Below are positions 1-23,200 of a DNA stretch of 64,000 bases, one piece after another. The position numbers and the translations under genes were made by a program. The DNA is from PVC group bacterium. GTDB lineage: Bacteria; Verrucomicrobiota; Kiritimatiellia; CAIKKV01. Each line of letters starts with the position of its first letter. The first letter of the stretch is position 1. The stretch spans positions 62,001-126,000 of the forward strand of contig CAMDGM010000004.1 of the NCBI GenBank assembly GCA_945898015.1. Reading direction: 5' to 3'. Below the pieces are notes generated by a model. The model was not told the origin of the DNA, made no database searches, and saw only the letters and a program-made list of their open reading frames with translations.

Positions 1-2183
1 ATCCGAAGGCCGACGCGGATGCGTTGATCCGGCAGTTCCTGGAGGACAACTACGGCAGGGGCGCCGCACCGTATGTATGGGACTATCTGAAGCTGGCTCA
101 GGCGGCCTATGCCGACAGCGGCCATGTGCCGAATCCGTGCCGGTGGACGGGTTTCCTCACGACCACGCGGCTCAAGATATATTCCCCCTCGGTGCTGAAA
201 AAGATGACGACCCTCATGGACAAGGCCATGAACGCCGCGAGGAAGGAGAAGAATCCCGCCCTGTTCACGAACCTGGTCGAGGCCCGAGGCAGTTCCGTCG
301 ATCACCTCACCATCGACGCCGCCAGGGCGGAGGGCAACTGGGGGCCGGTGAAGAATCCGGAAGACGGCAAGCGCTGGTTCGTCCCCGCGGCAGACCCGCG
401 CATACCCGCTTGCCTGGCGCGGGTCAGGCAGAGCATCGTAGCGGGCGGCGGGGGCGAATTCGGCTTCCCGCGCAATTTGACCGCGTTCTCATGCGAAAAA
501 GGCGGGCCAGTAGTGGACTTGGATTCCGGCACGCTGTCGGCGGCGGTGTGTCCGGACCTCAAGGGGCAGGTGACGAGCGCGATGGATAAACGCAGCGGCA
601 AGGAACTGTTGGCCGTGGTGGGCGCGGAAACCGGCTATCGTGACATGTTCTCCGTCACCGCCCAGATCTGGCTTCCCGTTCCCGTGGCCGAGAAGGGCTA
701 TAACCAGCCGGGGTCGGAGTGGCTGGACGTCTGGAGCCGGTTCGTCAATCCATCCGGCAATAGCCTTGAAACCGATCTGACCCTCTCGCCGTCCTACTGG
801 GGGTTCGATCCCAACAATCACCTGCGTCGTTCCGTCACGGTCGGTGAAGGAGGGTTGAAAATCGAGCGGACATATGTCCAGAGCAAGGGCGGGAAGATGC
901 CCAGTCCCACCCGGTTTACGACCCGCTGGCTGCTGGCCGTGCCCGATCCCGCCAAGGCCAATGTGGCCGTGAGCGGCGGCGGCATCGCAAAGACGTTCGA
1001 TCTGCGGTCCGTGGCGTCCGCTGGAGTCGCCGGTGTCGCGAAGGCCGGCGAACGGAAGAGCGTGAGCGCCGCAACCGACAGGTTCGTCGTGGACAACGTC
1101 ACGGGCGCCGACGGGATGCCCGTCGTGCGCACGATTGCACTGCCGGTGGCAAGCAACAGCACGGACACGATCACGATCCAACTGGACCGTGGCGACGGCG
1201 TGGCGACCGTTCTGTCCACGCCTGCCGCGGGCTGGGCCACGGTGGAACTGCAACCCGTGGTGGACAAGAAGCACGTGCGCGTGACTCTGGTCGGCGTTCC
1301 GGTGGCCATGGGACCGGATCCTGTGACCAATGCCTTGCCGGCGCAAACGCTGAGCGCGAAGAAGGTGCCGGTGGTGAAGGTATTGTCCGACACGTCCGAC
1401 ATGAAACCAGCGACTCCCAAAATCAAGGATCTCGGAAACGGCCGCGCCATCAACGAACTGGACGGCGCCGAACTGGTGTGGATCCCCGCCGACGAGTTCT
1501 TGCGCGGCAGCCCGGAAGGCAAGGGGTGCAGCGACGAACGGCCCCAGAAGAAGATCTTCCTCGATGGCTACTGGATATACAAGCATCCGGTGACGCTGGC
1601 GCAGTACACGAACTTCTGTGCCGCCACGGGCAAGAAATTCGAGCCGACCTGGGGCCAGGACATGCATGCCGAGCCTGTTGGCGAGGCCGGAACCTATGCC
1701 GCGCTGATGAACTGGTTCGAGGCGGACGCCTATGCCAAATGGGCGGGCGCGGCCCTGCCGAGCGAGGCCCAGTGGGAGAAGGCCGCCCGGGGCACGGACG
1801 GCCGCGAGTACCCGTGGGGCAACGACTGGGACCCGGAGAAGGCGGTGGGCCTGGAGCGCACAACCTATCGCTTCACCTCGGGCCTGATGCCGGTGGGAAG
1901 CTCGCCCGCGGGCGCGAGCCCTTACGGGGTCGAGGACATGGCCGGCAACTGCTGGGAATGGGTGGCGGACTGGTATGCCCATGAATACTACGCGACGGCG
2001 CTGGCGAAGAATCCGACCGGCCCCGCAACGGGGACGCACAAGGTACTGCGCGGCGGCTTCGCGCTGTTCGACGAGCGGTTCAGCCGTTCGGCGGCCCGCA
2101 TGGTTCATCCGCCCCAGGTGCGCGACTGGACGGCCGTCGGCTTCCGGTGCGTGGTGAACGGCACGTCCAAGGCCGCTCCATGA
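1..2183 (+). CDS. DUF4838-like protein with C-terminal SUMF1-fold domain (5' truncated by window edge)
   Basis: The frame is open from the first complete codon at position 3, so the true start lies outside the window. The first visible residues (FLEDNYG, then AAPYVWDYLKL) resemble the end of a DUF4838 domain, found in large exported or surface carbohydrate-active proteins of Bacteroidota and the PVC group. A beta-rich middle section follows (about nt 450-1400). The last 240 residues (about nt 1440-2160) are a SUMF1/formylglycine-generating-enzyme fold: LVWIPADEF, LPSEAQWEKAARG, YPWGN, MAGNCWEW and VLRGG in the usual order. The C-terminal Cys pair used by genuine formylglycine-generating enzymes is absent after VLRGG, so sulfatase activation is unlikely and a binding or structural role fits better. 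The gene heads a run of carbohydrate genes. The SUMF1 call is firm; DUF4838 is tentative because only its end is visible. Confidence 0.75.
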   Translation, partial: PKADADALIRQFLEDNYGRGAAPYVWDYLKLAQAAYADSGHVPNPCRWTGFLTTTRLKIYSPSVLKKMTTLMDKAMNAARKEKNPALFTNLVEARGSSVDHLTIDAARAEGNWGPVKNPEDGKRWFVPAADPRIPACLARVRQSIVAGGGGEFGFPRNLTAFSCEKGGPVVDLDSGTLSAAVCPDLKGQVTSAMDKRSGKELLAVVGAETGYRDMFSVTAQIWLPVPVAEKGYNQPGSEWLDVWSRFVNPSGNSLETDLTLSPSYWGFDPNNHLRRSVTVGEGGLKIERTYVQSKGGKMPSPTRFTTRWLLAVPDPAKANVAVSGGGIAKTFDLRSVASAGVAGVAKAGERKSVSAATDRFVVDNVTGADGMPVVRTIALPVASNSTDTITIQLDRGDGVATVLSTPAAGWATVELQPVVDKKHVRVTLVGVPVAMGPDPVTNALPAQTLSAKKVPVVKVLSDTSDMKPATPKIKDLGNGRAINELDGAELVWIPADEFLRGSPEGKGCSDERPQKKIFLDGYWIYKHPVTLAQYTNFCAATGKKFEPTWGQDMHAEPVGEAGTYAALMNWFEADAYAKWAGAALPSEAQWEKAARGTDGREYPWGNDWDPEKAVGLERTTYRFTSGLMPVGSSPAGASPYGVEDMAGNCWEWVADWYAHEYYATALAKNPTGPATGTHKVLRGGFALFDERFSRSAARMVHPPQVRDWTAVGFRCVVNGTSKAAP

Positions 2184-2271: not shown

Positions 2272-3462
2272 ATGAAGTCATCAAAGTGGCTGGAGATGAC
2301 CGACAGGATCGCCGATCTTCAAAACACGGCAAGCCAGGCGGAGCAGTACATCAACGGGCATCTCTTCGATGTCGATGGACTCATGTACTCCTATGTTGAC
2401 GTCCGCACAGGAAGGCCGTTTGACGAGACGTATGTGGCGCACTTTAAGGAAGAAGCGCTCCAAGCGAAAGCCTGGCAGGCCAATCGGCGCGCCGATTCTG
2501 ATCCCGTGACCTACTGGTCGTATGAAGACTCGGTCATCACGGCGGGACATTACATGGTGGCCCTGGTTCTGAAGTACGAGGTTACAGGCGATGCCAAAGC
2601 CCTGGAGCAGGCCTTCAAGATCTGGGAGCGTTACCGGCTGTGCTATTACGCCTCCCAGGTGTACGGCGAGGGCAGTTTCCTGCGGCCCTATGGCGGCTTT
2701 GCCGGCGGCTTCGCCGGCATGAGCCGGTGGATGGAGCCGCTGGGAACCGATCAGGCCAGCCCCCTGTTAAGAGGACAATACGCCTTGTGGAAACATGCCC
2801 AAGGCGAGCAGAAGAGCGAACTGACCGATATCATGGTCAAAACGCTCTCCTGGTACGAACGGCAGAACTTCAAGTATCTCTGGTATAAGAGCATTGTCCA
2901 TTCATGGAACGATAGTGCGCATGCGGGCAGTTACTATTTTCCGGCCATCGTCTTTGCCGCCAAGGTCACGGGAGACGAAAAGTGGCGGAAACTCCAACAG
3001 GCGAAGTTGCCGGGGGCCAGCAGAGATGTTACGGCCACATTCAAATTTGGAGGCGACCTGATCATGTTGGCGGACCTGCTGGGGCCCGAGGAATTCGAGC
3101 GGGCCTGTCCCAAAGCCGTTCTCGACGGCGCCTATGAGGCAGAGCTCAAGTATCTGGCCACATTTTCCCTTCCTGGAATGAGAAGGGCCGAGGGTCCCGG
3201 GGTTCGTTCTGTCCACACGGTACAGTCTCTGTGCGGCCTGGCCGGCATCGGTTATCCCGGCGCGGCTGAAAAGGCGCTTGAAATAATGGCTACGGTCAAG
3301 AGGGTGCCCGACGATTTCACGGTCTTCCTGGCCGACGCTCCCGAGAAGCTTCCGGAGGCCGGATTCGTTCAGCTTCAAGCCTATGCCGTCGGCGTTCTGC
3401 TCGTCGTCTGGTATCGAAACTACTGGATTCTGCGCAAGGCGCTGCTGGCGCAAAAGAAATAG
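2272..3462 (+). CDS. Alpha-helical-barrel protein of a carbohydrate gene block, function unknown
   Basis: A 396-aa soluble protein without signal peptide or membrane segment. The mix of long helices, aromatic-rich turns (YWSYEDSV, GFAGGFAGMSRWMEP) and conserved HSWNDSAHAGSYYF suggests an (alpha/alpha) six-hairpin toroid as in GH88/GH105, GH127 or AGE-type proteins, but I recognise no catalytic motif. I chose the ATG at 2272 because GGAG lies nine bases upstream and the leader GGAGACAACG matches that of the next gene at 3526, whose protein also begins MKS. An in-frame ATG at 2257 and an upstream extension to 2188 are possible but have no good ribosome binding site. The stop of the preceding gene is 88 bases upstream, so co-transcription is likely. 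Polysaccharide breakdown is inferred from neighbours only. Confidence 0.7.
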   Translation: MKSSKWLEMTDRIADLQNTASQAEQYINGHLFDVDGLMYSYVDVRTGRPFDETYVAHFKEEALQAKAWQANRRADSDPVTYWSYEDSVITAGHYMVALVLKYEVTGDAKALEQAFKIWERYRLCYYASQVYGEGSFLRPYGGFAGGFAGMSRWMEPLGTDQASPLLRGQYALWKHAQGEQKSELTDIMVKTLSWYERQNFKYLWYKSIVHSWNDSAHAGSYYFPAIVFAAKVTGDEKWRKLQQAKLPGASRDVTATFKFGGDLIMLADLLGPEEFERACPKAVLDGAYEAELKYLATFSLPGMRRAEGPGVRSVHTVQSLCGLAGIGYPGAAEKALEIMATVKRVPDDFTVFLADAPEKLPEAGFVQLQAYAVGVLLVVWYRNYWILRKALLAQKK

Positions 3463-3525: not shown

Positions 3526-6075
3526 ATGAAGAGTCAATGGTTGACCTTGGATCACGATATGGGAGCTGAAATGCCGACGAACGTCAAGACCAGGCTTGCC
3601 GACTTCGACTGCACCCGCGAGTATGCCGCCGACCGGTATTTCTCCACGGGGGACGTCACGGTGGTCGAAGGGCCGGCGGGCCGGTACCGGGAGGCGGCGG
3701 GCAAGCCCCTGTCCCGGTTCGGCTACCGGTTCCGGATCGAGCATGTGGGCCGGCCGCACCTGGCGGTGATCCGGTATCCGGACGACAAACGGCGGTTCAT
3801 GATCGTCAATGACGGAACGACCTACGACCTTTCGACCGGAATCACCACGGGACATGCCTGGCCGCTCAGCAACGCCATGCGGGAAATCCGGCAGGTGTTC
3901 TGGCCGCGCTGGGAGGATTGCAGCCTGTGCTTCATGACCTGGGGCCACACCGAGCCCGCGGCGGTGGCGTCGATCGAGATCGTCGAACTCGACGACCTGC
4001 CTGAACTGAAAATCGGGACACCGCGGGGCCGGGAACTCGGCATTCAATACGAGGACCCGTGCGGCATCTGCGCGGCCGAAGGCGCCATGAATTACGCCGA
4101 GTGGCTCGACCGCGTGGTCGCTTACGCGAAACACACCGGTCAGGGTCTGCTTTCCTACCCGATCTGCTGGTATCACGGACCGCTCTTCCCCTCGCAACGC
4201 GAGCCGGCCGATGCCTTCCAGGTGACCGTGGCGCGGGATCGCAAGGGGTATGTGGCGTGGACCAGCCGTCCGCCGGACTGGCCGGCCGCGCTGCTCGAGC
4301 GCTTCGGCCGCGAAGGCCTCGCCTTCCAGGGCGTCCTGACCCTGCTGCGGCTGGGCAGTCTGATGGAGCGGATGAACACCGACCTCGACGCCATCAAGGC
4401 CGGGGCCGACACCATCAATAACATGCTGTGGTGCGACCAGGTGCAGGCCGGAACGATGGACTGGACGGCGGTCTACAACGTCCTAAACTACCCGGAGATT
4501 GTCCGGCGTGGCCTGGGCGTGCACGCAACCGACGATTTTCCATTCGCGTATGGCGAAAAGATAGGCATGCCGTACCACGCCGGTCCGATCTTCAATCCGC
4601 TGCATCCCGTCGTCCAGGACGCGATCGTCGGCTTTGTGGCGGAGATCGGCCGGCGCTATGGCCAATATCCCGCCTTCAAGGGAATCGCCATCAACTTCTG
4701 GGCGCCGACGATCATCTGGTTCGGTTCGCTGCACGCGGGCTATGACGATACCACCGCGGCGCTGTTCGAGAAGGAGACGGGGGTGAAGCTGCCGGTGGAC
4801 GCGAAGGCGCCGGACCGTTTCTCGAAACGCTACGAGTTCCTCACCTTCCACTGCAAGCCGCTGTGGGTCGAGTGGCGCTGCCGGAAGATCCGCGACCTGA
4901 TTTGCCGCCTGCGCGACGCCCTGACCGCGGGGCGCGCCGACCTGACCCTGACGCTGAACCTCTGGAGCGAGCCGCTCGTTCCCGTGCTCTATGGGAACGG
5001 CGAGCCGCGCCAGCAACTGTACGCCCGCCCGAACGGGAAAACGATCTATCGGGAGGCGGGGCTGGACATGGACCTGTTTACGGACGAGCCCAACATCCGG
5101 CTCGATCTGCAGACCGAAGGGGGCGGGCGCGACCGCACCGGGTTTTACCAGCCGCGGGAAAACACTCCGACGGAGTGGTTTCACATGTTCCGCGATCACG
5201 ACTACCTTGACCGCGAAACACTTGCCGCGACGCAGTCGCAGCGCGCGCCCGGGGTCTTCATTTTCAACGCGTGGCACGAGGCTTGGGGCCGCCACAAGTG
5301 GTTTCCGTGCGAAAAGAACGACTCCAACCTGCCCGGCGTGTCGGAGGTGTATGGCAAGCCGGCGGAGGGCGTGTTCCGCTGCAACTCCGAGTATCCGAAG
5401 GACGGGTTCTGGTGGGACTCGCAGGCGCGCATCGCGCCTGCCTTCCCGCCGCCGCCCCATTTCATGGAGCAATACGCTCACGCCGTCGCCGAACTGGATG
5501 CCTGCCGCATTACGCGCGGCGGCCTGTTCCTCGATAAGGCGCATTCCGAAGAATTGCGCGGCTTCGCGGCGGCGTACCGGAATCTGCCGGCGGAGAAATT
5601 CGAAACCGTCGGCCATTCCACCGATCCCGTTGCGGTGCGAACCCTGGCGCCGCAAGGTGACGGCCGCCGATACATCTACCTTGTCAACCGCGAGCACTAT
5701 CCGCTCAAGATCCGGGTTTCCCTGGACCGGCCGGCGGAATTGACGAACCTGGCGGACGGGTCGAGGGTCGGGACGTCGACCGACTGGGGCGTCGAACTGC
5801 AGCCGTACGAGTTGCGGTCATTCGCCGCCGAGTCAGGAGTGGGGCTGACAGGCTTTACGGTCGAGGCGCCCGCGGAGATTGTCGCCGGCCTGGAGCGCGA
5901 CACCGCGAACGCCCTGGAGGCCATTGCCGCCACGCGCCGGGCCGGGCACTTCATCGCCGGCCTTGACCGGATCGAAGGCGATCTCCGCCGGTGTCTGGGG
6001 GAACGGCGCTTTTCCCGGTTGAGGCACCTGCTGACTGGCTATCATGTCAGCAAATGCCACGCCTGGATGCGATGA
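3526..6075 (+). CDS. Large glycoside-hydrolase-like protein (probable TIM barrel), family unassigned
   Basis: An 849-aa protein starting at an ATG with AGGAGA nine bases upstream. The first 150 residues look like a beta-sandwich; residues about 180-620 have the alternating pattern of a TIM barrel (LSYPICWYHGP, AFKGIAINFW, LTLTLNLWSEP, GVFIFNAWHEAWG), and the rest is a beta-rich tail containing YIYLVNREHYPLKI. Acidic residues at the ends of predicted strands (NLWSEP, NAWHEAW) are candidate catalytic residues, but I cannot assign a CAZy family. No signal peptide is visible, so it would act in the cytoplasm or be exported by an unrecognised route. It sits 63 bases after the previous gene and before a GH127-like gene, which supports a role in glycan breakdown. 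Confidence 0.65.
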   Translation: MKSQWLTLDHDMGAEMPTNVKTRLADFDCTREYAADRYFSTGDVTVVEGPAGRYREAAGKPLSRFGYRFRIEHVGRPHLAVIRYPDDKRRFMIVNDGTTYDLSTGITTGHAWPLSNAMREIRQVFWPRWEDCSLCFMTWGHTEPAAVASIEIVELDDLPELKIGTPRGRELGIQYEDPCGICAAEGAMNYAEWLDRVVAYAKHTGQGLLSYPICWYHGPLFPSQREPADAFQVTVARDRKGYVAWTSRPPDWPAALLERFGREGLAFQGVLTLLRLGSLMERMNTDLDAIKAGADTINNMLWCDQVQAGTMDWTAVYNVLNYPEIVRRGLGVHATDDFPFAYGEKIGMPYHAGPIFNPLHPVVQDAIVGFVAEIGRRYGQYPAFKGIAINFWAPTIIWFGSLHAGYDDTTAALFEKETGVKLPVDAKAPDRFSKRYEFLTFHCKPLWVEWRCRKIRDLICRLRDALTAGRADLTLTLNLWSEPLVPVLYGNGEPRQQLYARPNGKTIYREAGLDMDLFTDEPNIRLDLQTEGGGRDRTGFYQPRENTPTEWFHMFRDHDYLDRETLAATQSQRAPGVFIFNAWHEAWGRHKWFPCEKNDSNLPGVSEVYGKPAEGVFRCNSEYPKDGFWWDSQARIAPAFPPPPHFMEQYAHAVAELDACRITRGGLFLDKAHSEELRGFAAAYRNLPAEKFETVGHSTDPVAVRTLAPQGDGRRYIYLVNREHYPLKIRVSLDRPAELTNLADGSRVGTSTDWGVELQPYELRSFAAESGVGLTGFTVEAPAEIVAGLERDTANALEAIAATRRAGHFIAGLDRIEGDLRRCLGERRFSRLRHLLTGYHVSKCHAWMR

Positions 6076-6169: not shown

Positions 6170-6208
6170 GAAGATGCGGTCGTGAATAGAGGAGGACATG
6201 ATTGATGC
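6170..6208 (+). repeat. Conserved 39-bp translation-initiation segment, copy 1
   Basis: This segment contains a GAGGAGG Shine-Dalgarno sequence and ends at the start codon of the GH127-like gene. It matches 8047-8085 at 35 of 39 positions, with the start codon in the same place in both copies. Intergenic sequence around the two copies is otherwise unrelated. Confidence 0.8.
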
Positions 6209-8034
6209 GCCAATATCTTATGCAGACACCAGCAATACCAGGTTTCATTAGCCAATCCCAAGACGTTGACATCCATCGCTGGATCGAGCCGGGACAACTC
6301 AGCGACGTCAAATTCAACGCCCCGGACATGGTCCAGATGGCTCGCTGGGCAATGCACTACCTGGTGTGTAATCCGCAAAGACCGCTGGATTATGAATGCC
6401 GGTTCATCATTTCACCGCTTCGCTTCCCTCCAACGCTGGGAGATAACGTCCATGATGATATCGCGGTGGGCGATACTGAGAGCCGAATGGAGTTGGCCTA
6501 CATCTATATGCGAGAGATGACCGGCATGGATGTCGGTCGGAAAATCGAGAGCAGTATCCGGAAGCGTTTGATTTCTTATTTGAGGGATGACGGGCTTTGT
6601 TGGTGCTCGGCGTGTGCGTGTGGTTGCGGTACAAAAGTAGCCGCGATGACATGGACAACCTCGCATCTGCTGCTGTCAACATTGGAACGTTACACCCGAA
6701 CCGGCGACAGGAAACTGCTTCCAATGGCTCGAAACATGTTTAAAGGCTTGAAATCCTTGGCCACCAGCAAAGGAGGGATGAAATTTTATGAAGGGGGGGC
6801 AGCCCCTTGGGCTGATGGCAAATGGTTTTATGAATGCAGCTGCCATTATCCGATGCTGACAGGGGTTGTCCAGTATTGGAAAGTCACCGGTGATCCGGAC
6901 GCTCTGGACTTTTCTCAATCCATGGCAGAAGGAACTATTGCCGGATTACAGCCGAACCTTGGAGTCTGCCGCTTGAAGCCCGACGGCAGCCACAGCAGTT
7001 ACAACGGCCACCTGACGATGCGCGGCTTGGTCGGGATCGCCCAGTTGGGCCATCTTACGGGTGATGCACGTTACGTGGAATGCGTACGCCGGACCTATGA
7101 GTTTAACCGTGCCACTGGAACCGATTGGGGTTGGTATCCCGAAAACATCTTTGAACGAGACCGCAGATACTATTCCGAAACATGCTTTGACGCAGACATG
7201 GTCGAAGCGGGCATCGCCATTGCCAATTCAGGATATCCAGATTATTGGGATCACATTGAAAGGACAGTCCGCAATTATCTTCGCGAAAGTCAATTTTTCG
7301 TAACTCCTCAATACCGCAAGATGTACGAGAGTGTCCATCCGGAATTGGACAGCCGTCAGGTAGACCAGGCCATGAACATGATGCGGAAATATGAGGGCGG
7401 TTTTTTGGCGCGCCTCACCCCGAATGACCGCGTTTATCTTCGCAACAACGTTCTGGAAATGTCCATGATGGGGTGTTGTCCGCCGGAAGGAATGCGCTCG
7501 CTGTATCTCGCCTGGATCAATACAGTTGTTGACAAGGGTGAAAATGTATTTGTCAACATGGCGCTGGACCGCGAGAGCACCGCATGTTCAGTAAAGACGT
7601 TCGCCCCAAAACAAGGACGGCTGGAAGTGACGGCGCTCCGGAATGCGATATTTCACCTCCGTCCCCCTGCCTGGGCGCCGCAGGAGAAGATTCATGTGTA
7701 CTTAAACGATAACAGGATAACAGCGGATTGGTGCCGTTCCTACATCCGTTTCCAGCCGGCAAAGTCCGGTGACCGGCTTCGCATTGATTATCCCATGCCC
7801 GAATTTACCCAACGGGTGCCGGTCGGATACGATGGCTCCGAAGATGTCTATCACGTGAGATGGATAGGAAACGATGTCGTGGACATTACACCTCACGGAA
7901 AACATCTGCCTATTTTTCAAGATTCCTGCGGGAAGATGCCTGCTTTGACCGATCCGAATCAATGGGAATCTGGAAGCATCATAAACACTAATGGAAATCA
8001 GATTCTGTCTGATGCTGACTGGAAACCTTATTAA
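6205..8034 (+). CDS. GH127-like (DUF1680-related) glycosidase
   Basis: A 609-aa protein without an obvious signal peptide. The middle has the helical-toroid pattern of beta-L-arabinofuranosidases (HLLLSTLERYTRTGD, NGHLTMRGLVGIAQL). An E-T-C motif at residues 325-327 and a C-C-P-P-E motif at 424-428 match the zinc site of GH127 enzymes, where one Cys of the pair is the nucleophile and Glu, Cys and Cys-Cys bind zinc. The C-terminal beta-sandwich ends with LRIDYPMPEFTQRVPVG, as in DUF1680 proteins. The ATG at 6205 has GGAGG about ten bases upstream; the in-frame TTG just before it is less likely. Substrate (arabinofuranoside or another sugar) cannot be read from sequence. Codon use is slightly more AT-rich than in neighbouring genes. 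Confidence 0.75.
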   Translation: MRQYLMQTPAIPGFISQSQDVDIHRWIEPGQLSDVKFNAPDMVQMARWAMHYLVCNPQRPLDYECRFIISPLRFPPTLGDNVHDDIAVGDTESRMELAYIYMREMTGMDVGRKIESSIRKRLISYLRDDGLCWCSACACGCGTKVAAMTWTTSHLLLSTLERYTRTGDRKLLPMARNMFKGLKSLATSKGGMKFYEGGAAPWADGKWFYECSCHYPMLTGVVQYWKVTGDPDALDFSQSMAEGTIAGLQPNLGVCRLKPDGSHSSYNGHLTMRGLVGIAQLGHLTGDARYVECVRRTYEFNRATGTDWGWYPENIFERDRRYYSETCFDADMVEAGIAIANSGYPDYWDHIERTVRNYLRESQFFVTPQYRKMYESVHPELDSRQVDQAMNMMRKYEGGFLARLTPNDRVYLRNNVLEMSMMGCCPPEGMRSLYLAWINTVVDKGENVFVNMALDRESTACSVKTFAPKQGRLEVTALRNAIFHLRPPAWAPQEKIHVYLNDNRITADWCRSYIRFQPAKSGDRLRIDYPMPEFTQRVPVGYDGSEDVYHVRWIGNDVVDITPHGKHLPIFQDSCGKMPALTDPNQWESGSIINTNGNQILSDADWKPY

Positions 8035-8046
8035 AATCAAGCGCGC

Positions 8047-8085
8047 GAAGATGCAGTCGTGAATGGAGGAGGACATTACTGATGC
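8047..8085 (+). repeat. Conserved 39-bp translation-initiation segment, copy 2
   Basis: The second copy of the segment at 6170-6208, with 35 of 39 bases identical. It includes GGAGGAGG and ends at the ATG of the next gene. Confidence 0.8.
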
Positions 8086-8981
8086 CAACATGGACCTGTG
8101 CCTTGGAACTGGGATCGGATCGGAAACCCGTTGCCGGCAGCGCTGAAGCCCTGGCCGCCGCAATTCGTCGGGGCGCCGACCTGCGCGTCTACACGGAATT
8201 CCTTCACAACGAGCATATCGATGTTGAGAGCGACAATTCCGAGCGCATTCGGGAGACGGCGCAATTCGCGGTGACCTATCTGATGGAGAACCGTTGGGCG
8301 GCCGGCATCATGAGTCTGCGCCAGCCGGTCAGCTTGCCCGACCGCTTTGGGCCGCGGCCGTCCATGTCGTTCTTTCTCTATAACCAGAATGGCGAGCAGG
8401 CCATTGCCCGTCCGCACCTCGATGGCGCGCCAGCTTCGGGACAGCCGGGGTCTTCGCCCTCGGAGGCGCCGCCCGCCATGCCCAAGTACCACGCCATGAA
8501 CGCGTGGGACGCCCTGACCAACGCGCCGTCAAGCAACTTCGTATACGACTTCGACGTCTTCCGCTATTATGTCAGCGACACCTGGCGGGAGGTACTCGCT
8601 CACGACGCACAGGGGCGGATCAAGAGCGGCTCGGTCGAAACGCTGGCGGAGGCGTTCACAAAGGGGCAGGCGGTGAAAGTCGCCGTGGGGGAACTGGCGC
8701 GCTCGTGGTCTGGACGTCCCGATGACGCGATGCCCCATGAGGTGTTTGTGGAAATTGGCTCCTGTTACTACTACACCGCCCAGCGCCTATTCGTGGCCGG
8801 CAGCCATCCCGTCATCCGCGTGGCTCCCGGCATTCCGCTGCGGTATGAAAGCCGGGCGTGGGACTTCGGCTGGCTCCTGTTGCGCACGGACGGTCAGGTC
8901 GTGTACCGGCGCTGCGATCCGTACGCGCTGGATTTTCAGGACATCCCGCTGCACCTTCCGGTCCGTTGGTTTGTGAGGTAG
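8082..8981 (+). CDS. Conserved hypothetical protein of carbohydrate gene blocks
   Basis: A 299-aa soluble protein. I do not recognise a named domain. Its N-terminal part (AAIRRGADLRVYTEF, EHID, AAGIMSLRQP, GFGPRPSMSFFLYN-type wording) reads like a conserved globular domain, with a proline- and serine-rich insert near residues 125-140. The second half contains a WDALTNAPSSNFVYDFDVFRYYVSDTW-like stretch and a late segment with paired aromatic residues, consistent with a beta-rich fold. There is no signal peptide or membrane helix. The start at 8082 is fixed by the strong GGAGGAGG in the duplicated leader. It is 47 bases after the GH127-like gene and is followed by two gene remnants, so it probably shares their transcript. 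No function is proposed. Confidence 0.7.
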   Translation: MPTWTCALELGSDRKPVAGSAEALAAAIRRGADLRVYTEFLHNEHIDVESDNSERIRETAQFAVTYLMENRWAAGIMSLRQPVSLPDRFGPRPSMSFFLYNQNGEQAIARPHLDGAPASGQPGSSPSEAPPAMPKYHAMNAWDALTNAPSSNFVYDFDVFRYYVSDTWREVLAHDAQGRIKSGSVETLAEAFTKGQAVKVAVGELARSWSGRPDDAMPHEVFVEIGSCYYYTAQRLFVAGSHPVIRVAPGIPLRYESRAWDFGWLLLRTDGQVVYRRCDPYALDFQDIPLHLPVRWFVR

Positions 8982-9242: not shown

Positions 9243-9551
9243 ATGAACAAGTACGACATATTTGACGAAGCCAAACGGGAATACGTGATTACACGACCGG
9301 ACACTCCGGCGCCGTGGATCAACTATCTCATGGGAAGTGACCTCTGCGTGCTGATGTCTCAGACCGCGGGCGGCTTGGCGTTTTACAAGGAACCCGCCGA
9401 AGGACGACTCACCCGCTATTGCTTCAACGGTCTGCCGGTGGCCATCAGCGGCAACCGGCTGCCGCTCATGGAGAAAACGAGAGTCGCCGTTCTGGCCACG
9501 CTTTCTCATCCTGCGAAACGGCCGGCTGCCCGGAAGGAGAAGATCCGATGA
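9243..9551 (+). pseudogene. Remnant of the 5' end of a GH94/cellobiose-phosphorylase-like gene
   Basis: From the ATG at 9243 the protein reads MNKYDIFDEAKREYVITRPD, then PWINYLMG, AGGLAFYKEP and LTRYCFNGLP. This is the characteristic N-terminus of GH94 (cellobiose or chitobiose phosphorylase-like) proteins, which are normally about 800 residues long. After about 60 residues similarity stops; the frame continues with unrelated basic residues and ends at 9551, overlapping the start of the M55 gene. The remaining 90 percent of the gene is missing. An upstream in-frame ATG at 9204 exists but adds residues not expected for the family. The truncated product is unlikely to fold. Together with the previous entry it marks deletions inside the block. 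Confidence 0.65.
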
Positions 9552-10366
9552 AAGTCTACGTTCAAACCGACATTGAAGGCGTGGCTGGCGTGGTGTTCTT
9601 CGAACATTACGACCCGTCGCCCGAGAATGTGCAGCATCGCCAGCGCATGCGGCGCCTCCTGACCGGGGAAGTCAATGCGGCCGTGACTGCGGCGTTCGAG
9701 GCGGGCGCCACCGAGGTGATCGTCAACGACAGCCATGGCAGCGGCTACAATGTCCTGTTCGAGGAACTGGATGCCCGCTGCGAGATCATCCACGGTCGCA
9801 ACTGCAGCGGGCCGCACTGGCTGCCGGAATTCGATGACTCCTTCGAGGCTTTGGTGCTTGTTGGGATGCACGCCATGGGGGGAACTCCGAAGGCGATCCT
9901 GCCGCACAGCCGGTGGGAGGTCAACGACGGCGAGATATTCCTTGGTGAGGCCAGTATGGCTGCGGCCCTGGCGGGGCACCGCGGCGTTCCGACGGTCTTC
10001 GCCAGCGGCGATGACAAGATCGTGGCGGAACTGCGTGAGAAGATTCCGGCCGCCCGATACGCCCAGGTGAAAAAGGCGCTGGGGGCCTACCAGGCGCGCA
10101 GCCTCATCCCTGCCCGGTCCCGGGAACTCATCGCCCAGGGAGTGAAAGAGGCTCTGGAGCATGCCGGCGATATCGAGCCCTACCGTATTCGCGGTCCACT
10201 GCAGCTCAACTTGATCGATTCGCCGAACCATGCTCCGCCGTTCACGCGAGTGCTCGACAAGTCTGTCGAGGCCGCCAACATCGAAGATGCATTCATGCAG
10301 GCGTTAAAGGCGATGCCATGGAACAAATTCAACGTCGAACTTCCCGATGGCTTCCAGTTCCCATAG
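9548..10366 (+). CDS. M55 family D-aminopeptidase (DppA-like)
   Basis: A 272-aa zinc peptidase of the DppA family, which releases D-amino acids from short peptides such as D-Ala-D-Ala. The N-terminal motif has Asp8 and Glu10 (QTDIEGVAG), followed by the family motifs NDSHGSG and VGMHAMGGT carrying the histidine ligands, and FASGDDK. Length is typical. The start ATG has AAGGAG eight bases upstream and overlaps the stop of the preceding gene remnant (ATGA). No signal peptide is present, so it is cytoplasmic. In this setting it may process peptide parts of amino-sugar polymers or peptidoglycan fragments; that role is inferred. A second M55 gene lies at 43,042. Confidence 0.88.
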   Translation: MKVYVQTDIEGVAGVVFFEHYDPSPENVQHRQRMRRLLTGEVNAAVTAAFEAGATEVIVNDSHGSGYNVLFEELDARCEIIHGRNCSGPHWLPEFDDSFEALVLVGMHAMGGTPKAILPHSRWEVNDGEIFLGEASMAAALAGHRGVPTVFASGDDKIVAELREKIPAARYAQVKKALGAYQARSLIPARSRELIAQGVKEALEHAGDIEPYRIRGPLQLNLIDSPNHAPPFTRVLDKSVEAANIEDAFMQALKAMPWNKFNVELPDGFQFP

Positions 10367-10452: not shown

Positions 10453-11613
10453 ATGAGCAGAATGTTCAACATCGCAGTCGTCGGTTGCGGGGCCATGGCG
10501 CAGGGGATGCATCTGCCCAATGTCGCGCGCCATCCCGGAATCCATCTGCGTTGGTGCTGTGACGTGGACCACAAGACGCTTGATCACGTGGCCACGACGT
10601 ACCACCCGGATCGGACGACGACAAATATCGCCGAAATCGCGGCGGACAAGGAGTGTGACGCGGCCATTGTCGCCACGCATCCGGCCGGCCGGCTCGAAAT
10701 CGTCCGGACCCTGGCGGCCGCGGGGAAGCACATCTATGCCGAAAAGCCTATTGCGGACAACTTTGCCGACATGCTCTCAATTCAGCAGATCGTCAAGAAA
10801 ACCGGCATCGTCTTTACCGTCGGTCACAATCGCCGGATGGCGCCGGCTCTTCGCGAAGCGCGCGACATTTATCGGAACCACCGGGATCACCCGCAATCGG
10901 AGCCTTGGCGCTGGGACCGTGTCGGCGCCAGGCGCCCCCGGTTGCCCCAGGAGCAGCAGACGTGCATGCTGCAGCGGATCAACGACGATTCCCTGTCCTG
11001 GAAAGAGTGGGTCTTTCAGGAGAAGGCGGGCGCTCTCCTCTTGGAACTCAATCACTTTTCGGACCTGGCGTGTTACTTCATCGAACGGGAGCCGGTTCTC
11101 GTGAGCGCGACAGGCGACGCGATCATGAATGTCGTGGTCAACATCACATTCGCGGACGGGTCCCTAGGCGTCATTTTCGATGCGTGTACCGGGACCTTCG
11201 GGTATCCCAAAGAGTTGTGCGAGATCTATCAGGGAGGCGCCGTCATTGCGGTGGACCATTGCATGGAGGTGCGCACGGCCGGCATTCCGGGCCAGCCGTT
11301 CCGGCGCGTCTATCCATCCGCCACCGATCCTGCTGTCGCGGGGATTGAAGCCTGGTATGACCGCACGATCGAAGCGATGCGCAAACCGGTCGATCCTCGG
11401 TTTCCCTTGGCCGCCCCCGGTCCGAACAAGGGACACTTTGAGCTTCTGGATGCCTTCGTGCGGGCGTGCCGCAACGAGGGGGAGAACCCGTGCGATGCCG
11501 TGGCGGGCACCCGGGCGGCGGCCATCGTTCTGAAGGCGGAAGAAAGCCTGCGCCGCGGCGGAGCGCCTCGGAAAATGGAGGCGGCGGACTATGTCGCGGA
11601 GACGGTCCGATGA
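10453..11613 (+). CDS. Gfo/Idh/MocA family oxidoreductase
   Basis: A 386-aa protein with the N-terminal Rossmann motif VVGCGAMAQGMH at residues 9-20, an EKPIADN motif (the family's conserved EKP) near residue 97, and a C-terminal alpha/beta domain. Members oxidise or reduce sugars, inositols and amino sugars with NAD(P)(H). The start has AAAGGAG 10 bases upstream. An insertion rich in Arg, Trp and Pro near residues 150-175 (RWDRVGARRPRLP) replaces part of the usual substrate domain, so substrate cannot be predicted. It follows the M55 gene by 86 bases and precedes the NagB-like promoter region, fitting a sugar-conversion role. Confidence 0.88.
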   Translation: MSRMFNIAVVGCGAMAQGMHLPNVARHPGIHLRWCCDVDHKTLDHVATTYHPDRTTTNIAEIAADKECDAAIVATHPAGRLEIVRTLAAAGKHIYAEKPIADNFADMLSIQQIVKKTGIVFTVGHNRRMAPALREARDIYRNHRDHPQSEPWRWDRVGARRPRLPQEQQTCMLQRINDDSLSWKEWVFQEKAGALLLELNHFSDLACYFIEREPVLVSATGDAIMNVVVNITFADGSLGVIFDACTGTFGYPKELCEIYQGGAVIAVDHCMEVRTAGIPGQPFRRVYPSATDPAVAGIEAWYDRTIEAMRKPVDPRFPLAAPGPNKGHFELLDAFVRACRNEGENPCDAVAGTRAAAIVLKAEESLRRGGAPRKMEAADYVAETVR

Positions 11614-11918: not shown

Positions 11919-12875
11919 ATGAGCCCATTTTCTTTCAAAAGCGCCGACTGGGTGCCTTACAAGGATTTCGATCCCGCTCTGCTGGAGCGGCTGCGCCGGA
12001 TGGGCGAGGCGGAATACGAGCGGCGCGAGGACGCCCATCATCCCGACTTCCGGATCAAGGTGCTGGAGAACTTTGGCGCGGTCTGTACGGCCGATCGTTT
12101 CACGAATATCAAGGAATCGGACGAGAAGAACCGGAAATTCGTCATGATCTGCGGCAACCCGAATCCGCACTCGTATATGCCCCTGGCCGAACTGATCAAC
12201 CTTTACCGGATCAACTGCCGCAATCTCTACGTCTTCACGATGGACGAGTGGGCGGACGAGGCGGGCCATATCGCCCCCGAGACGTACAAGGCCGGCTTCA
12301 CCTACTCGTTCCTGAAGTATTTCTACGACAAGATAGACCCGAAGCTGCGCCCGCCGCGGAAAAACATCTATCATCCGACCGACGCGAATATGAAAGACTA
12401 TTCCAGGCTGCTCTACGAGGTGAGCGACGGCGGCAACTATACCCTTTACAGCGGGCCGGGCTGGACGGGCCACATCGCCTTCATCGATCCCTGTCCCGAA
12501 TTCAACCGCCCCGGGATCACGATCGACGAGTATCTGGATCAGCCGGCGCAGGTTGTCTCGCTCCATCCGCTGACCATCGCCCAGAACTCGCTGCATGGCG
12601 TCTTTGGCTGCAGCGGCGACGTGGGCAACGTGCCGCCGAAGGCGGCCACATTGGGCCCGCTGGATGTGAAGCGCGCGAAGAGGCGCTTCGAGCAGCACGG
12701 GCTGAGCACCATGGGAACGTTCTCCTCCTGGCAGCGGATGGTCAGCCGCCTGATCTGTCACGGCCCGGTCACGCCGCTGGTGCCGGGATCGATCCTTCAG
12801 CTCTTTCCCTGCACGCTCTACGTCTCGCCCCAGATCGCCAAACCGATCGCTTGCATGGAAACGGTCGGATACTGA
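11919..12875 (+). CDS. NagB-like glucosamine-6-phosphate deaminase family protein, divergent active site
   Basis: A 318-aa protein of the glucosamine-6-phosphate deaminase/isomerase family, whose classical members convert glucosamine-6-phosphate to fructose-6-phosphate and ammonia. GNPNPHSYMPL is the phosphate-binding region, and FTMDEWADE carries the Asp equivalent to E. coli Asp72. GPGWTGHIAFIDP aligns with the catalytic GxGxDGHIAFNEP: His is kept, but the Asp141 equivalent is Thr and the Glu148 equivalent is Asp. The reaction may therefore differ from standard deamination. The start is set by AGGAG seven bases upstream. It overlaps the next gene by one base (TGATG), so the two are translationally coupled. 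It is probably cytoplasmic and acts in amino-sugar use. Confidence 0.78.
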   Translation: MSPFSFKSADWVPYKDFDPALLERLRRMGEAEYERREDAHHPDFRIKVLENFGAVCTADRFTNIKESDEKNRKFVMICGNPNPHSYMPLAELINLYRINCRNLYVFTMDEWADEAGHIAPETYKAGFTYSFLKYFYDKIDPKLRPPRKNIYHPTDANMKDYSRLLYEVSDGGNYTLYSGPGWTGHIAFIDPCPEFNRPGITIDEYLDQPAQVVSLHPLTIAQNSLHGVFGCSGDVGNVPPKAATLGPLDVKRAKRRFEQHGLSTMGTFSSWQRMVSRLICHGPVTPLVPGSILQLFPCTLYVSPQIAKPIACMETVGY

Positions 12876-14215
12876 TGAACCGGGAAAACAAATGCGTCTT
12901 GCGGGCGGGCGCCGCGGCGGTGGATATTTCTCCGCGCAAGAGCCTGTTCCTCTGCGGATATCCCAACGTCAAGCGCGACAGCTCGGGGATCCACGATCCG
13001 CTGATGAGCTCCGCGCTGTTTCTGGATGATGGCGCGAGGCAAGCGGTCTTCATCGCCAACGACATTATCTATATTCCCAAGGGGCTTGGCCGGCTGGCCC
13101 GGGCGCGCATCGCCGGGGCGACAGGGGTGCCGGAGGGCCGGATCATGATCACGGCCACCCACACCCATTCCGGACCGCTCACGGTGGCGCGGAACTACCC
13201 GTCCGCGGATTCCGTGACGCCGGCGCCGGATGCGGATTATGTCGCGCAACTCGAGGACGGCATCGTTCAGGCCGCCGTCGCCGCCGTTCGGGCCGCGCGG
13301 CCCGCGGAGGCGGGCTTGGCGGCGGCGGATGCCGCGGGGGTGGGCACGAACCGGCGCGTTCCGCACGGGCCGGCGAATCTGCGCGTGCCGGTGCTCAGCG
13401 TGCGCGATGCCGCCACGCATGCGCACCTGGCGCTCATGACCGTCTGCTGCATGCACCCGACGGTGCTGCACGAGAACTCCACGCTGGTCAGCGGGGATTT
13501 TCCGGGCCTGGCGCGGCGGTATCTGCAGCGGCACGTGGTGGGGGCAGGGTGCCCGGTGTTGCATCATTCCGGTCCGGCGGGCAACCAGAGTCCGAGGCAC
13601 GTCACACGCGGCAACACGTTCGAGGAGGCGGAGCGGCTGGGAACGATTCTCGGGAAGGCCGTGGAAAAGGCGCTGAACGGCGTGGCCTATCGCACGGCTC
13701 TGGCCCTGGGGTTTGCCGGCGCGAACGTGGAGTTGCCACGGCGGAACTTTCCGCCGGCAGCCGAAGCCGAAGCGGACGAGCGCGCCTCCCGGGAACGGCT
13801 TGAGCGGATGCGGCGGGATGGGAGCCCGCGCGCGGAGACGCGCACCGCGGAATGCGACTGGTTCGGGGCGGCGCGCCGGTCCGCCCTGGCCCGGTTTGCG
13901 GCGAATGGCGGGCTGGACAAAGCCGCGGCCGCGTGCATGCCGGCGGAGATCCAGGTGATCCGCGCGGGGCCGTGGTCATTTATTGGCTGGCCCGGCGAAA
14001 TCTTCATCGAATTCGCCCTGGAGGCGGTTCGGGGGTTCCCGGACGCGTTCGTGATCGCTTATGCCAACGGCGAAACAGACGGGTATCTCGTGACCGCCGA
14101 AGCGGTGGCCGAAGGCGGCTACGAAGCGGCGACCGGCCTATTCAAGAGTCCCGAAAGCGGTGATTTGCTGGTGAAGAAAACGCGGGAACTCCTGGCTCTT
14201 TCCGGGAATGCCTAA
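12875..14215 (+). CDS. Neutral-ceramidase-like protein (neutral/alkaline non-lysosomal ceramidase N-terminal domain)
   Basis: A 446-aa protein with the zinc-binding THTHSGP motif near residue 92, a second histidine region (CCMHPTVLHEN), a GDFPG turn and HSGPAGNQSP, which corresponds to the family's G-D/N-x-SP motif. PVC genomes carry many such proteins next to sugar-degradation genes, and most are not proven ceramidases; an amidase acting on N-acyl groups of amino sugars is equally plausible. There is no signal peptide, unlike secreted ceramidases, and the C-terminal immunoglobulin-like domain of full-length enzymes is missing, so it is shorter than typical. The ATG overlaps the stop of the NagB-like gene. 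Residues 270-320 are rich in Arg and Glu and look like an insertion. Confidence 0.75.
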   Translation: MNRENKCVLRAGAAAVDISPRKSLFLCGYPNVKRDSSGIHDPLMSSALFLDDGARQAVFIANDIIYIPKGLGRLARARIAGATGVPEGRIMITATHTHSGPLTVARNYPSADSVTPAPDADYVAQLEDGIVQAAVAAVRAARPAEAGLAAADAAGVGTNRRVPHGPANLRVPVLSVRDAATHAHLALMTVCCMHPTVLHENSTLVSGDFPGLARRYLQRHVVGAGCPVLHHSGPAGNQSPRHVTRGNTFEEAERLGTILGKAVEKALNGVAYRTALALGFAGANVELPRRNFPPAAEAEADERASRERLERMRRDGSPRAETRTAECDWFGAARRSALARFAANGGLDKAAAACMPAEIQVIRAGPWSFIGWPGEIFIEFALEAVRGFPDAFVIAYANGETDGYLVTAEAVAEGGYEAATGLFKSPESGDLLVKKTRELLALSGNA

Positions 14216-14544
14216 ACCGGGGTGGCACCGTGCATCCATGCGGCGGAGTGACCTTCTGAAGGATCAGGAGGATAAATACTTCTCTCACACGATCATGCAG
14301 TGCGTAGACGTTATGGATCTGCAGGACATCAAGGCCCTCATGGAGCAGTACATTCAGCTTGAAACTGATGAATTTCGCGCTTCACATGGACGAGACGCTC
14401 AGTCCATTTTTCCGGGCTAGCGTTCAGCGGTGCCTGATGAATACGACCCCGGATCAGGACGAAAACTCGCGTATCAATTCGCTGGATCTGAACCTGACGG
14501 GAAAGCCGCAAAATCAGGATTCGAACCCTGCTCAAAAAAAGGCA

Positions 14545-14565
14545 TATCTTTGACGTATCTTTGAC
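14545..14565 (+). repeat. Two direct copies of TATCTTTGAC next to the att-like site
   Basis: Copies at 14,545-14,554 and 14,556-14,565 are separated by one base. Short direct repeats at this distance from an att core are what tyrosine integrases and excisionases bind (arm-type sites); this use is inferred. Confidence 0.6.
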
Positions 14566-14666
14566 TTTATGCCATTTCCATGCAAATCATTTCAAACGAC
14601 ACCATCGGAGGCGTCGATGGCTATGAAAAGGCGTAACTGACTGTATTGCAATTAATTATAATTATA

Positions 14667-14694
14667 TCAAATCGTTTCAAATCGTTTCAAATCG
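14667..14694 (+). repeat. Near three copies of the 10-bp repeat TCAAATCGTT
   Basis: Two full copies at 14,667-14,676 and 14,677-14,686 are followed by eight bases of a third. A related CAAATCATTTCAAACG lies at 14,584-14,599. The array ends 36 bases before the tRNA fragment. Confidence 0.75.
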
Positions 14695-14729
14695 CACGGA
14701 AGAAAATGGCGGAAAAGAGGGGGAGTGGA

Positions 14730-14774
14730 TTCGGGACCAAAAGGTCGAGGGTTCAAATCCCTCCGCCCCGACCA
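14730..14774 (+). other. 3' half of a tRNA-Pro(CGG) gene: probable attachment-site scar of an integrated element
   Basis: Reading 5' to 3': anticodon loop TTCGGGA (anticodon CGG, G37), anticodon stem 3' strand CCAAA, five-base variable region AGGTC, T-stem GAGGG/CCCTC around loop TTCAAAT, acceptor 3' strand CGCCCCG, discriminator A and encoded CCA. G72 and A73 are proline features. Everything 5' of the anticodon loop is missing: bases upstream cannot form TTTGG, a D-arm or CGGGGCG. A clean break at the anticodon loop is the classic result of site-specific integration into a tRNA gene. Given its orientation, the intact tRNA and the element should lie to the left, so this marks the element's right end. 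It cannot function as a tRNA. Confidence 0.8.
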
Positions 14775-14847
14775 TTCCTCGCAGGGCTTACATGCCCTGC
14801 TCGTCATGGCAAGCCATTCCTTTGCGAAGGAAGCCCTGCGAGGAATG
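14773..14847. repeat. 17-bp perfect inverted repeat (REP-like palindrome)
   Basis: CATTCCTCGCAGGGCTT at 14,773-14,789 is the exact reverse complement of 14,831-14,847. The 41 bases between contain further small palindromes (GCCATTCC, CTTTGCGAAGG). It resembles the extragenic palindromes common in bacteria that begin GTCATTCC on the other strand. It lacks a T-run, so it is not a typical terminator. It begins inside the CCA of the tRNA fragment. Confidence 0.75.
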
Positions 14848-14876: not shown

Positions 14877-15173
14877 ATGCACAAGCCCAAACCATTCCCA
14901 AGCTCAACGACCATTTGGTTCACCTACATCCTGGAATGCCGTGACGGCTCTTATTATGTCGGCATTACGAACGATCTGCAATCCCGTGTTGACGAGCATA
15001 ACGCCGGCGCGGGAGCCTCGTGGACGCGTATTCGGCGACCCGTGAAGCTTCGATTCGCCCAACCGTTTCCGGACAAATCCGGTGCCCGGCTGCGGGAGAA
15101 CGAAGTCAAGGGCTGGCGTCGCCAGAAGAAGGAATTGCTTATTCATTCCGAGATCAACGTGGTCCCTGAATAG
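14877..15173 (+). CDS. GIY-YIG nuclease family protein (small UPF0213-like type)
   Basis: A 98-aa protein consisting almost entirely of a GIY-YIG domain: TYILECRDGSYYVGITNDL supplies the TY...YVG core, followed by an Arg and EHN (RVDEHNAG) and a Glu near ARLRENEVK that matches the catalytic Glu of the family. Small stand-alone members (YhbQ/UPF0213 type) are widespread; a DNA-repair or DNA-processing nuclease role is known for a few. I chose the ATG at 14,877, just before MHKPKPF, because the upstream extension runs through the tRNA fragment and palindrome. The ribosome binding site is weak (GAAGGG). It is the first gene on the presumed chromosomal side of the att-like site and has no partner in an operon. 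Confidence 0.82.
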   Translation: MHKPKPFPSSTTIWFTYILECRDGSYYVGITNDLQSRVDEHNAGAGASWTRIRRPVKLRFAQPFPDKSGARLRENEVKGWRRQKKELLIHSEINVVPE

Positions 15174-20185: not shown

Positions 20186-20224
20186 TGACCCACGGACGCA
20201 GCACGAATGGGGGTGGGCAGAATC

Positions 20225-23200
20225 ATGCATAACGACAACATAGTGAGCGGGGCGAATGACGGAACCCGGACGGCCCGTTGGCGTTCGCGTTTCAGTCTTC
20301 TGGCGCTAGGATTCCTGATTCTTACGGCCTTGCAGGGGATTGCCGCGCCACCTCTGCTTCAATCGGCCAATCGGAACGTGTTTTATCCCGACGGGATGGT
20401 CACGAATGAGTCCTGGTGGGCGCCTTTCACCAACACGCCCTCGTTCGCGAGCAATCAGGTGGTCGGGTTCTCAGCCATCGGAGGCGCGGGGATCGAGACG
20501 ACCACCAACGCGGCGGACGTCTACCCCGTGATCGGCACGAATCTCGTGATCGCCATGTCGTCCTTTGGCGAGCCCATCGTGGGCATTGGCGCCAATTTCC
20601 AGCTCGGCGACACGCTGTCGCCGCCGCTTGGCGTCAACAGCAACGCGACGCCGGTTCTGGATTTCCTCGGCGGATCAACCAATGCGGTCTGGCTGGGTTA
20701 TGCCGGCCAGCTGATCGCCTCCGACATGGGCGCCGTGCAGGTGAGCTGGACGCTCATGAACGGGACCACGCAGACCATCACCTACACGGTGTCGCCGAAT
20801 CCCACCCGCCGGCCGGTCCGGCTGTATTGGACGGAAGGCCAGAATGCGGGGCCGACGATCTCCTTTTCCAGCACTTATCGTGTGGACATCTTCTACAACA
20901 GCCAGATCAAGGGCACCAACGATGTGTGGATCGACGCCAACCAGTTGCACGCCTCGCCGACATGCGGGTCGGGCGGTCGCTTCCTGCTGACCTATTCGCG
21001 CGTGGATGAGGGATCCGGCAAACGCGAGCTTCTGGCCTACGAGATTGTGGAAGTGCTTCAGCCCATGTCCTCCGTGCGCTATGCGCTGGTCGGTGAACGG
21101 CTCCTGCCCCAGGAACGGCCCTATGGGACCGAGAGCCTCTTCGCCACCATCACGCGCGGCGTCATTGATCCCGCCCAACTGGAGACGCCCTATGTCTATC
21201 AGCATACGGTGGGGACAAAGAAGGGGTGGGTCTGGGCAATCCGCGAGACGCCGGTGAACGAGCCCTGGCGCATCGAGATTTACTGGAAGGCCAAGGAGCA
21301 ACTGGATGTGCTATGGCCGTTTGAAGTGGACATCTATGACGTGAAGTGGGGGGCCAACGCTCAGCTCTTCGTGCGCGGCGAGAAGGGTGACCCCGCTCCC
21401 AAGGTGTATTTCCCGACCTCCCTGCAGGTCGACCTGATGCCGCACACCCAGCCGGAGACGCACACGCCGGTGCTGAAAAACGGGGCCCTGTCCACCGTTG
21501 ACGAAGGCTATTGCCTGCTGAAATATGCGGTCGGAAACGATGTCTGGTTTGAACCCGTTCGATCCATTTCACACAATAATCCCCTCTTTGGAACCACTCC
21601 GACGGAATGGAACATTGCCCGCGAGTTGCGGCCCGTGGATCTGAACGGCGCTCTCCTGGAGGACACCTATGGGGAATGGCCCGGTTATCTTTACACCAAC
21701 GGCGTGAATTCTGGAAAAGCTTACAATGTCGGGAAGTACAATTATCCCGGCGGCTACCTGGAGTTGGCCGACCTGAATTCCTATCTGTTTCCCGTGAACA
21801 AGGGGGCGATTGAGGTCTGGTGGGGGAATCGCAGCAAGCAGGTCGGGCTGCCGAAGCCCGTCTTCTTCCCCAGTCTGGCCAACCGGTATTTGTGCGTCTG
21901 GCCGCCCCAGCCCCGGGAGATTGCGATCGCCAGCGGACTTGGAAACACGGGGTACACCGAGGATCGGCAGCTCTCCTGTATCCGGTTCGATCGGAGCGGC
22001 ATGGCTCTGGATGATGCCCAGTTTTTTGGCTGTCATCTCTCCCGGAACGCGCCGAATGGCCTGGCCATGACCAGTCAAATGACGCTGGAGCTCTGGCTGA
22101 AGCCGGACTCGCTGAGCGGGATGCAATACCTGATCGATAAGGGGAACAATTACAAGTTGCGGCTGAACGGCGCCGTTCCCGAACTGTATGCCGGAGGGCG
22201 CTGGTATCGCGCAACGGCCGGATTGACGGGCAAATGGCAACATCTCGCGGTGACGGTGGTCGGCCGGGGTGTAGTCACCTTTTATGTGGACGGCATGGAG
22301 GCGGGCACGATCCCGTTCACGGGGTCCCTGGCCTCCGATTCCGCTCCTCTCCGACTGGGCGCCCAAGCGAGCGATGGCACGACGCCTGAAGACTTCTATT
22401 CCGGCGCCATGGATGAGGCGCGCCTCTGGTCCGTGGCGCGTACGGCGACGCTGATCCGTGACCATATGAACATTTCCGTGGAACCGAGGGACAAGGGTCT
22501 CTGTGCCCGCTATCGCTTCGATGCGGGGGAGCAGGTCCGCGATGTGAGCGATTTCGGCAACCATCTGGACCTCCCGGAGGCCGGTGTGGCGTTTGAGACG
22601 GATGGCGTTTCGCAGGTCTTGCCGGGCATCGATCTCTCGGGTGTTACGATCGATCTCTACGTGCAGAACGACTCCAAGCTCGACGGCTATAATCCCAATG
22701 AGGAGCACGCGATCATTTTCCAGAGCACGGTGTATGCCTTGCGGTGTGATCTCAATATCACCAACGGGACGAGTTACTCATCCGACCCGTTCGTGCTGGT
22801 TGACTGCCAGAGCCCGTTGACCCTGGACAACCGGCCTTACATGGAGGCCTTCCGGGTCGTTCCCACCAACTCCGTCTATAAATTCGAGCGGTTCCTGAAT
22901 GCGGGGTTGATGATCCAGCCGCCGTTGCCCCTTTCGCTGATGGTTCCCTCGAACTGCTCGTCGAACAAGCAGGTGGCCGGCCCCCGGTTCCGTGATCGCA
23001 AGGGGTATTATTGGGCCAAGCAGGCGGGAGACAGGGGCGGAACCACCAATTACGTTTTCGACTTCTACTATCCGATGGTGTCCATGTTCAATTTCCCCGG
23101 GCAGTCCGTGCAACCCGCCGACGGCACTCAGATTCCCTGGCTGGATCGCCTGTCCGGAGACCAAACACCCCAGGACTTCACCTACATCGTCGAATGGCCT

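Follow-up and report, generated by a model that had tools for sequence, protein, structure and literature searches.

A probable 38.1-kb integrative island at tRNA-Pro(CGG) in a PVC group bacterium

Islands that integrate into tRNA genes are recognized by the Islander signature, in which an intact tRNA gene and a displaced 3′ fragment in the same orientation enclose an integrase gene (PMC4383910). In the current study, we describe an interval with this layout in a PVC group bacterium whose 3.29-Mb genome is assembled in 72 contigs. Our starting point was a stretch of 64,000 nucleotides (C4:62,001-126,000, here called the window), the first 14.7 kb of which form the right-hand third of the island; the island as a whole occupies C4:38,650-76,775, and its right end, attR, lies in the window. 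Its length of 38.1 kb falls within the 2- to 200-kb range of Islander. An intact tRNA gene stands at one end (C4:38,618-38,694), a 3′ fragment in the same orientation lies downstream and reaches the tRNA 3′ end (exact over 46 bp), the integrase within the interval belongs to PF00589 and is of neither the Xer nor the integron type, and the fragment sits between called genes, outside any full tRNA gene and any conserved protein domain. Based on the exact att pair, the intact tRNA with its integrase, their orientation, the existence of sister elements and the conserved arm-like ends, we consider it highly probable that this is an integrative island which entered through a tyrosine integrase at tRNA-Pro(CGG), and that the fragment at 14.7 kb is its attR scar. 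It is a textbook-style, well-formed tRNA-targeted genomic island, carrying sugar-degradation and phage-defence genes. The literature that we searched, which is partial in coverage, contains no description of this element, and the exact ends of a mobile island are now fixed in a little-studied, uncultured lineage.

Attachment sites and flanking DNA

The preliminary description of the window had reported a tRNA-Pro(CGG) 3′ half lacking its 5′ half (window 14,730-14,774, 45 bases, TTCGGGACCAAAAGGTCGAGGGTTCAAATCCCTCCGCCCCGACCA), had proposed that an island ends there with its body to the left, and had suggested a leftward search for an intact tRNA-Pro(CGG) gene followed by an integrase gene. That search found both, in the predicted orientation and on the same contig. 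The 45-base segment matches the intact gene exactly (ARAGORN; anticodon at position 35), which lies 38.1 kb to the left of the displaced half. The shared sequence extends one base further, so that window 14,730-14,775 and C4:38,650-38,695 form a 46-bp exact direct repeat in the same orientation; its first base is that of the anticodon loop, and the copies diverge on either side of the repeat. Genome-wide, at up to three mismatches, the core pattern occurs at these two places only (C4:38,650 and window 14,730), and the reversed pattern, run as a control, gave no matches. Within the window, ARAGORN called no tRNA (the 5′ half is absent at 14,730) and an Rfam search returned nothing, as would be expected of a displaced fragment comprising only half a tRNA. 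With attL and the integrase located to the left, the position at 14.7 kb is confirmed as the right end, and the block at window 1-14.7 kb does lie inside the element, enclosed by the paired att sites. The features around attR are as follows (window coordinates).

14524..14595, + strand: putative arm-type block of attR; 72-nt match (78% identity) to the C23 block beside a displaced tRNA-Val half
14667..14694, + strand: tandem TCAAATCGTT, two copies and a partial third; probable second arm-type or accessory sites
14730..14775, + strand: attR core, displaced tRNA-Pro(CGG) 3′ half, exact repeat of C4:38,650-38,695 (attL)
14877..15173, + strand: GIY-YIG gene, outside the island; the first chromosomal gene past attR on the right

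Integration would have taken place by recombination, catalyzed by the tyrosine integrase, between an attP core on a circular form of the island and the 3′ half of the chromosomal tRNA-Pro(CGG) gene. The island's own copy of the 3′ half would then keep the tRNA at the left end (attL, beside the integrase gene) complete, while the host's original 3′ half would be displaced to the right end as the attR fragment. The whole 38 kb presumably moved as a single unit, with the glycan block as imported cargo.

Two sets of 10-base direct repeats upstream of the core had also been taken to mark this end of the island. The repeats themselves are real: the first, TATCTTTGAC, lies at 14,545-14,554 and 14,556-14,565, and the second at 14,667-14,676 and 14,677-14,686, with its partial third copy running to 14,694 and a further imperfect copy at about 14,583. 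We counted 10 repeated 10-mers in the 200 bp preceding the core, compared with a mean of 0.06 in 5000 dinucleotide-preserving shuffles, none of which reached 10. They appear, however, to be arm-type sites rather than further boundaries. The 72-nt block, which contains one repeat pair, matches the C23 block with a score of 32 (shuffle maximum, 12). Its motif TTTGACGTATCTTTGAC (14,549-14,565) occurs once in the window, and close versions stand between the tRNA and the integrase gene both on C4 (TTTGGCGTTTCTTTGAC) and on C5 (TTTGACGTAACTTTGAC), where a second integrase of this family adjoins a tRNA-Val gene; a common motif is likewise present at the two ends of the related element in genome G005. 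Thus, arm DNA is common to two elements with different tRNA targets and the core is not, the pattern expected of arm-type sites. On this sequence evidence, we interpret the direct repeats as probable arm sites, to which the integrase would be predicted to bind.

The sequence right of attR, from window 14,775, is TTCCTCGCAGGGC. An inverted repeat (TTCCTCGCAGGGCTT and its complement) lies directly past attR at window 14,775-14,845; it was considered as a genome-wide repeat and rejected, both arms being unique to this place in the genome. At the other end, a terminator-like hairpin (AACCTCAAGAA...TTCTTGAGGTTTTTT) follows the restored tRNA end at C4:38,700-38,734, and a similar one occupies the matching place on C5, as if the island supplied the terminator of the tRNA.

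A search for the empty site among 57 relatives, none of them at the species level, found no locus orthologous on both sides. In G001, a relative from the same family, tRNA-Pro has a different gene context. In order-level relatives only the left flank is syntenic, and there an acyltransferase gene and a GT2 gene remain beside tRNA-Pro(CGG); the left boundary is therefore chromosomal. The order acyltransferase-GT2-tRNA-Pro(CGG)-GIY-YIG, with no insert, is found in one of these, genome G006, an arrangement which is only suggestive of an empty site, as its GIY-YIG protein is just 35% identical over 68 residues. Outside attR, the next sizeable gene after GIY-YIG has a counterpart of 59% identity in G001. 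With G+C contents of 0.620 in the island and 0.629 and 0.644 in the flanks, composition shows no contrast that would mark the island as foreign. The right flank, outside the island, also holds two giant open reading frames (ORFs), at window 20,207-28,186 (2659 aa) and 29,476-42,696 (4406 aa).

Island contents and history of the cargo

From its left end, the island encodes the integrase; an AbiEii toxin and an AbiEi antitoxin, adjacent and both strong matches (AbiEi is intact at about C4:41,376-42,146, its frame opening with MKTKINQ); an AAA/DUF4143 ATPase that matches PADLOC candidate PDC-S01, a candidate defence ATPase; two transposase-type ORFs; and a GntR/periplasmic-binding-type regulator. 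Glycine-rich, laminin-G-like, BNR-repeat, Gfo/Idh and acetyl-xylan-esterase genes follow, along with unassigned ones, and lead to the DUF4838/FGE gene with which the window opens. From there to attR, the presumed cargo is as follows (window coordinates).

1..2183, + strand: DUF4838 and FGE-sulfatase domain protein; gene start left of the window, at C4:60,641
2272..3462, + strand: 396-aa protein, no Pfam match
3526..6075, + strand: 849-aa GHL10-like protein
6205..8034, + strand: weak GH127-like protein, lower G+C
8082..8981, + strand: 299-aa protein, no Pfam match
9243..9551, + strand: 102-aa GH94 supersandwich fragment, probable gene remnant
9548..10366, + strand: M55 D-aminopeptidase family protein
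10453..11613, + strand: Gfo/Idh/MocA oxidoreductase
11919..12875, + strand: 318-aa protein, no Pfam match
12875..14215, + strand: neutral/alkaline ceramidase-like protein, last sizeable gene before attR

We infer that the glycan genes were brought in as cargo. A search of 55 related genomes at E<=1e-30 found no relative of the 849-aa GHL10-like protein, and the acetyl-xylan esterase is absent from G001 at E<=1e-40, with partial matches only (at most 45% identity) in five more distant genomes. Together with the conserved gene beyond the GIY-YIG gene, this fits imported cargo, a comparison that covers three genes only. It suggests that glycan-degradation blocks, which are typical of these bacteria, can ride tRNA-targeted mobile DNA beside phage-defence genes.

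One alternative is that the att sites are real and that the mobile part comprises only the ca. 5 to 6 kb proximal to the integrase (integrase, AbiE and defence ATPase), the glycan block having come later, by accretion, by tandem insertion with loss of an internal att site or by rearrangement, and not with this integrase. We think such a composite or trapped origin unlikely, but given the lack of G+C contrast and the presence of an integrase relic, we regard it as a serious competing account of the cargo's history. The relic, 54 bp from the 3′ end of a second integrase gene (C4:42,287-42,340), is 87% identical to the C5 integrase gene, lies between the AbiE genes and the defence ATPase, and indicates earlier remodelling of the island. 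Moreover, G+C content in the left 6 kb (0.56-0.60) is lower than in the rest (0.58-0.67), IS-type transposase ORFs separate the two parts, and on C5 the lower-G+C part of the element likewise adjoins host-like DNA. However, the core exists in two copies only, both at the outer ends, and the attR arm block, which belongs to this integrase family, sits to the right of the cargo; the GHL10-like protein is also absent from the 55 relatives and the esterase from G001.

It is very improbable that the island is a prophage or an integrative conjugative element with its own transfer machinery. By eye, the sister element in G005 does include clamp-like and DNA-polymerase-like proteins, and the lineage may include larger self-contained elements. 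In this copy, however, the Pfam matches of the 24 called island proteins comprise only integrase, AbiE, AAA/DUF4143, transposase, regulatory, metabolic and unassigned proteins. They include no relaxase, coupling-protein, type IV secretion or phage structural genes. No excisionase or transfer gene was recognized either by Pfam in the same 24 proteins or by PHROGs in the four leftmost ones, for which PHROGs returned integrase families and one weak ATPase only. Since no transfer genes were recognized, the island would depend on a helper phage or conjugative element to pass from cell to cell, or it may no longer be mobile.

Remnants of tRNA genes do occur without islands, but the idea that the 45-base segment matches only by chance, or is an unrelated tRNA pseudogene, in ordinary chromosome is scarcely credible, and the att pair together with the integrase refutes it: the identity to an intact tRNA on the same contig is exact over 46 bp and in the same orientation, the integrase adjoins the intact copy, and arm DNA specific to the integrase family adjoins the fragment.

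Sister elements

The closest counterpart lies in G005, a genome of the same order, in which an integrase of 50% identity occupies the corresponding position beside a tRNA-Pro(CGG) gene, and a displaced tRNA-Pro half lies 68.5 kb away. The two elements share their tRNA target, the crossover base (the displaced half starts at the same base as the window core) and the position of the integrase. They differ in that blastn finds no DNA similarity outside the att region; the G005 cargo looks different, and by eye includes replication-type genes. Another tyrosine-recombinase-like ORF (G005:C6:50,062-51,297) ends at the displaced tRNA-Pro half, where a second element may lie in tandem.

Two further members of the integrase family are found in the same genome as the island. 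On C5, a 79%-identical integrase (68,577-70,420) stands beside tRNA-Val(TAC), and the displaced tRNA-Val half, which also starts at the anticodon loop, is on another contig (C23:434-475); by eye, C5:1-49 kb looks chromosomal, which bears on the extent of this element. On C10 (55,510-62,086), a satellite-like 6.5-kb element with small helix-turn-helix (HTH)-type ORFs lies between tRNA-Pro(GGG) and its displaced 3′ half; its integrase, a more distant family member, lies at the opposite end from the intact tRNA. The G001 DNA past tRNA-Pro matches that beyond the displaced tRNA-Pro half on C10, but we rejected it as the empty site of the C10 element; this sequence recurs elsewhere on C10 and is a dispersed repeat.

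The integrase and its relation to known systems

The integrase gene of the island (C4:38,859-40,451) is intact, encodes 530 aa, starts 164 bp past tRNA-Pro(CGG) and points away from it. The protein matches PF00589 (E=1.1e-12) and scores far below the XerC, XerD and integron cut-offs. It has an arm-binding-like N terminus and a SAM-like core-binding domain, and in an alignment of 26 members the catalytic residues R235, K260, H437, R440, H463 and Y473 are kept; among solved structures, those that match best are XerC-like, XerA and lambda integrase. At E<=1e-40 the family is found in 73 of the 288 genomes of the class, and in the loci that we fetched, same-strand tRNA genes just upstream of the integrases include Pro, Gly, Arg, Val and Leu.

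The only unusual feature of the island is a helix-turn-helix insert in the catalytic domain of this protein. Most family members have the insert and others lack it. The spacing between the first arginine motif and HxxR forms two groups, about 190-234 in proteins with the insert and 107-136 in the others. Its helix-turn-helix signature consists of weak matches to many HTH Pfam families, and in an AlphaFold2 model of a relative (mean pLDDT, 86; pTM, 0.62) this stretch (residues 324-409) contains confidently predicted helices. A 70-row tree requires at least five gains or losses. As a partial and therefore weak test, the literature that we searched describes no such insert in an integrase catalytic domain. 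One tentative possibility, which we put forward as a conjecture, is that the integrase belongs to an undescribed branch of the tyrosine recombinases, found mainly in the PVC group (Kiritimatiellota, Verrucomicrobiota and Lentisphaerota), whose insert was repeatedly gained or lost and may contribute to the choice of tRNA target or stand in for a separate directionality factor. With a family that recurs at five tRNA types across the PVC group, the insert offers a concrete protein for testing how integrases recognize and change their targets.

As for known systems, the AbiE genes resemble other type IV toxin-antitoxin systems in that AbiEii and AbiEi lie side by side; we saw no difference, and they are ordinary island cargo. 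The integrase shares its domain layout and all six catalytic residues with tyrosine recombinases of the lambda integrase and XerA type (PF00589), but unlike these it has ca. 80 to 90 extra residues, with the helix-turn-helix, between the β-hairpin lysine and HxxR. The island as a whole has the same layout as the Islander tRNA-gene islands (PMC4383910), with a crossover in the anticodon loop and a length of 38 kb; it departs from them in no aspect of layout, although its host lineage and integrase branch have been little studied.
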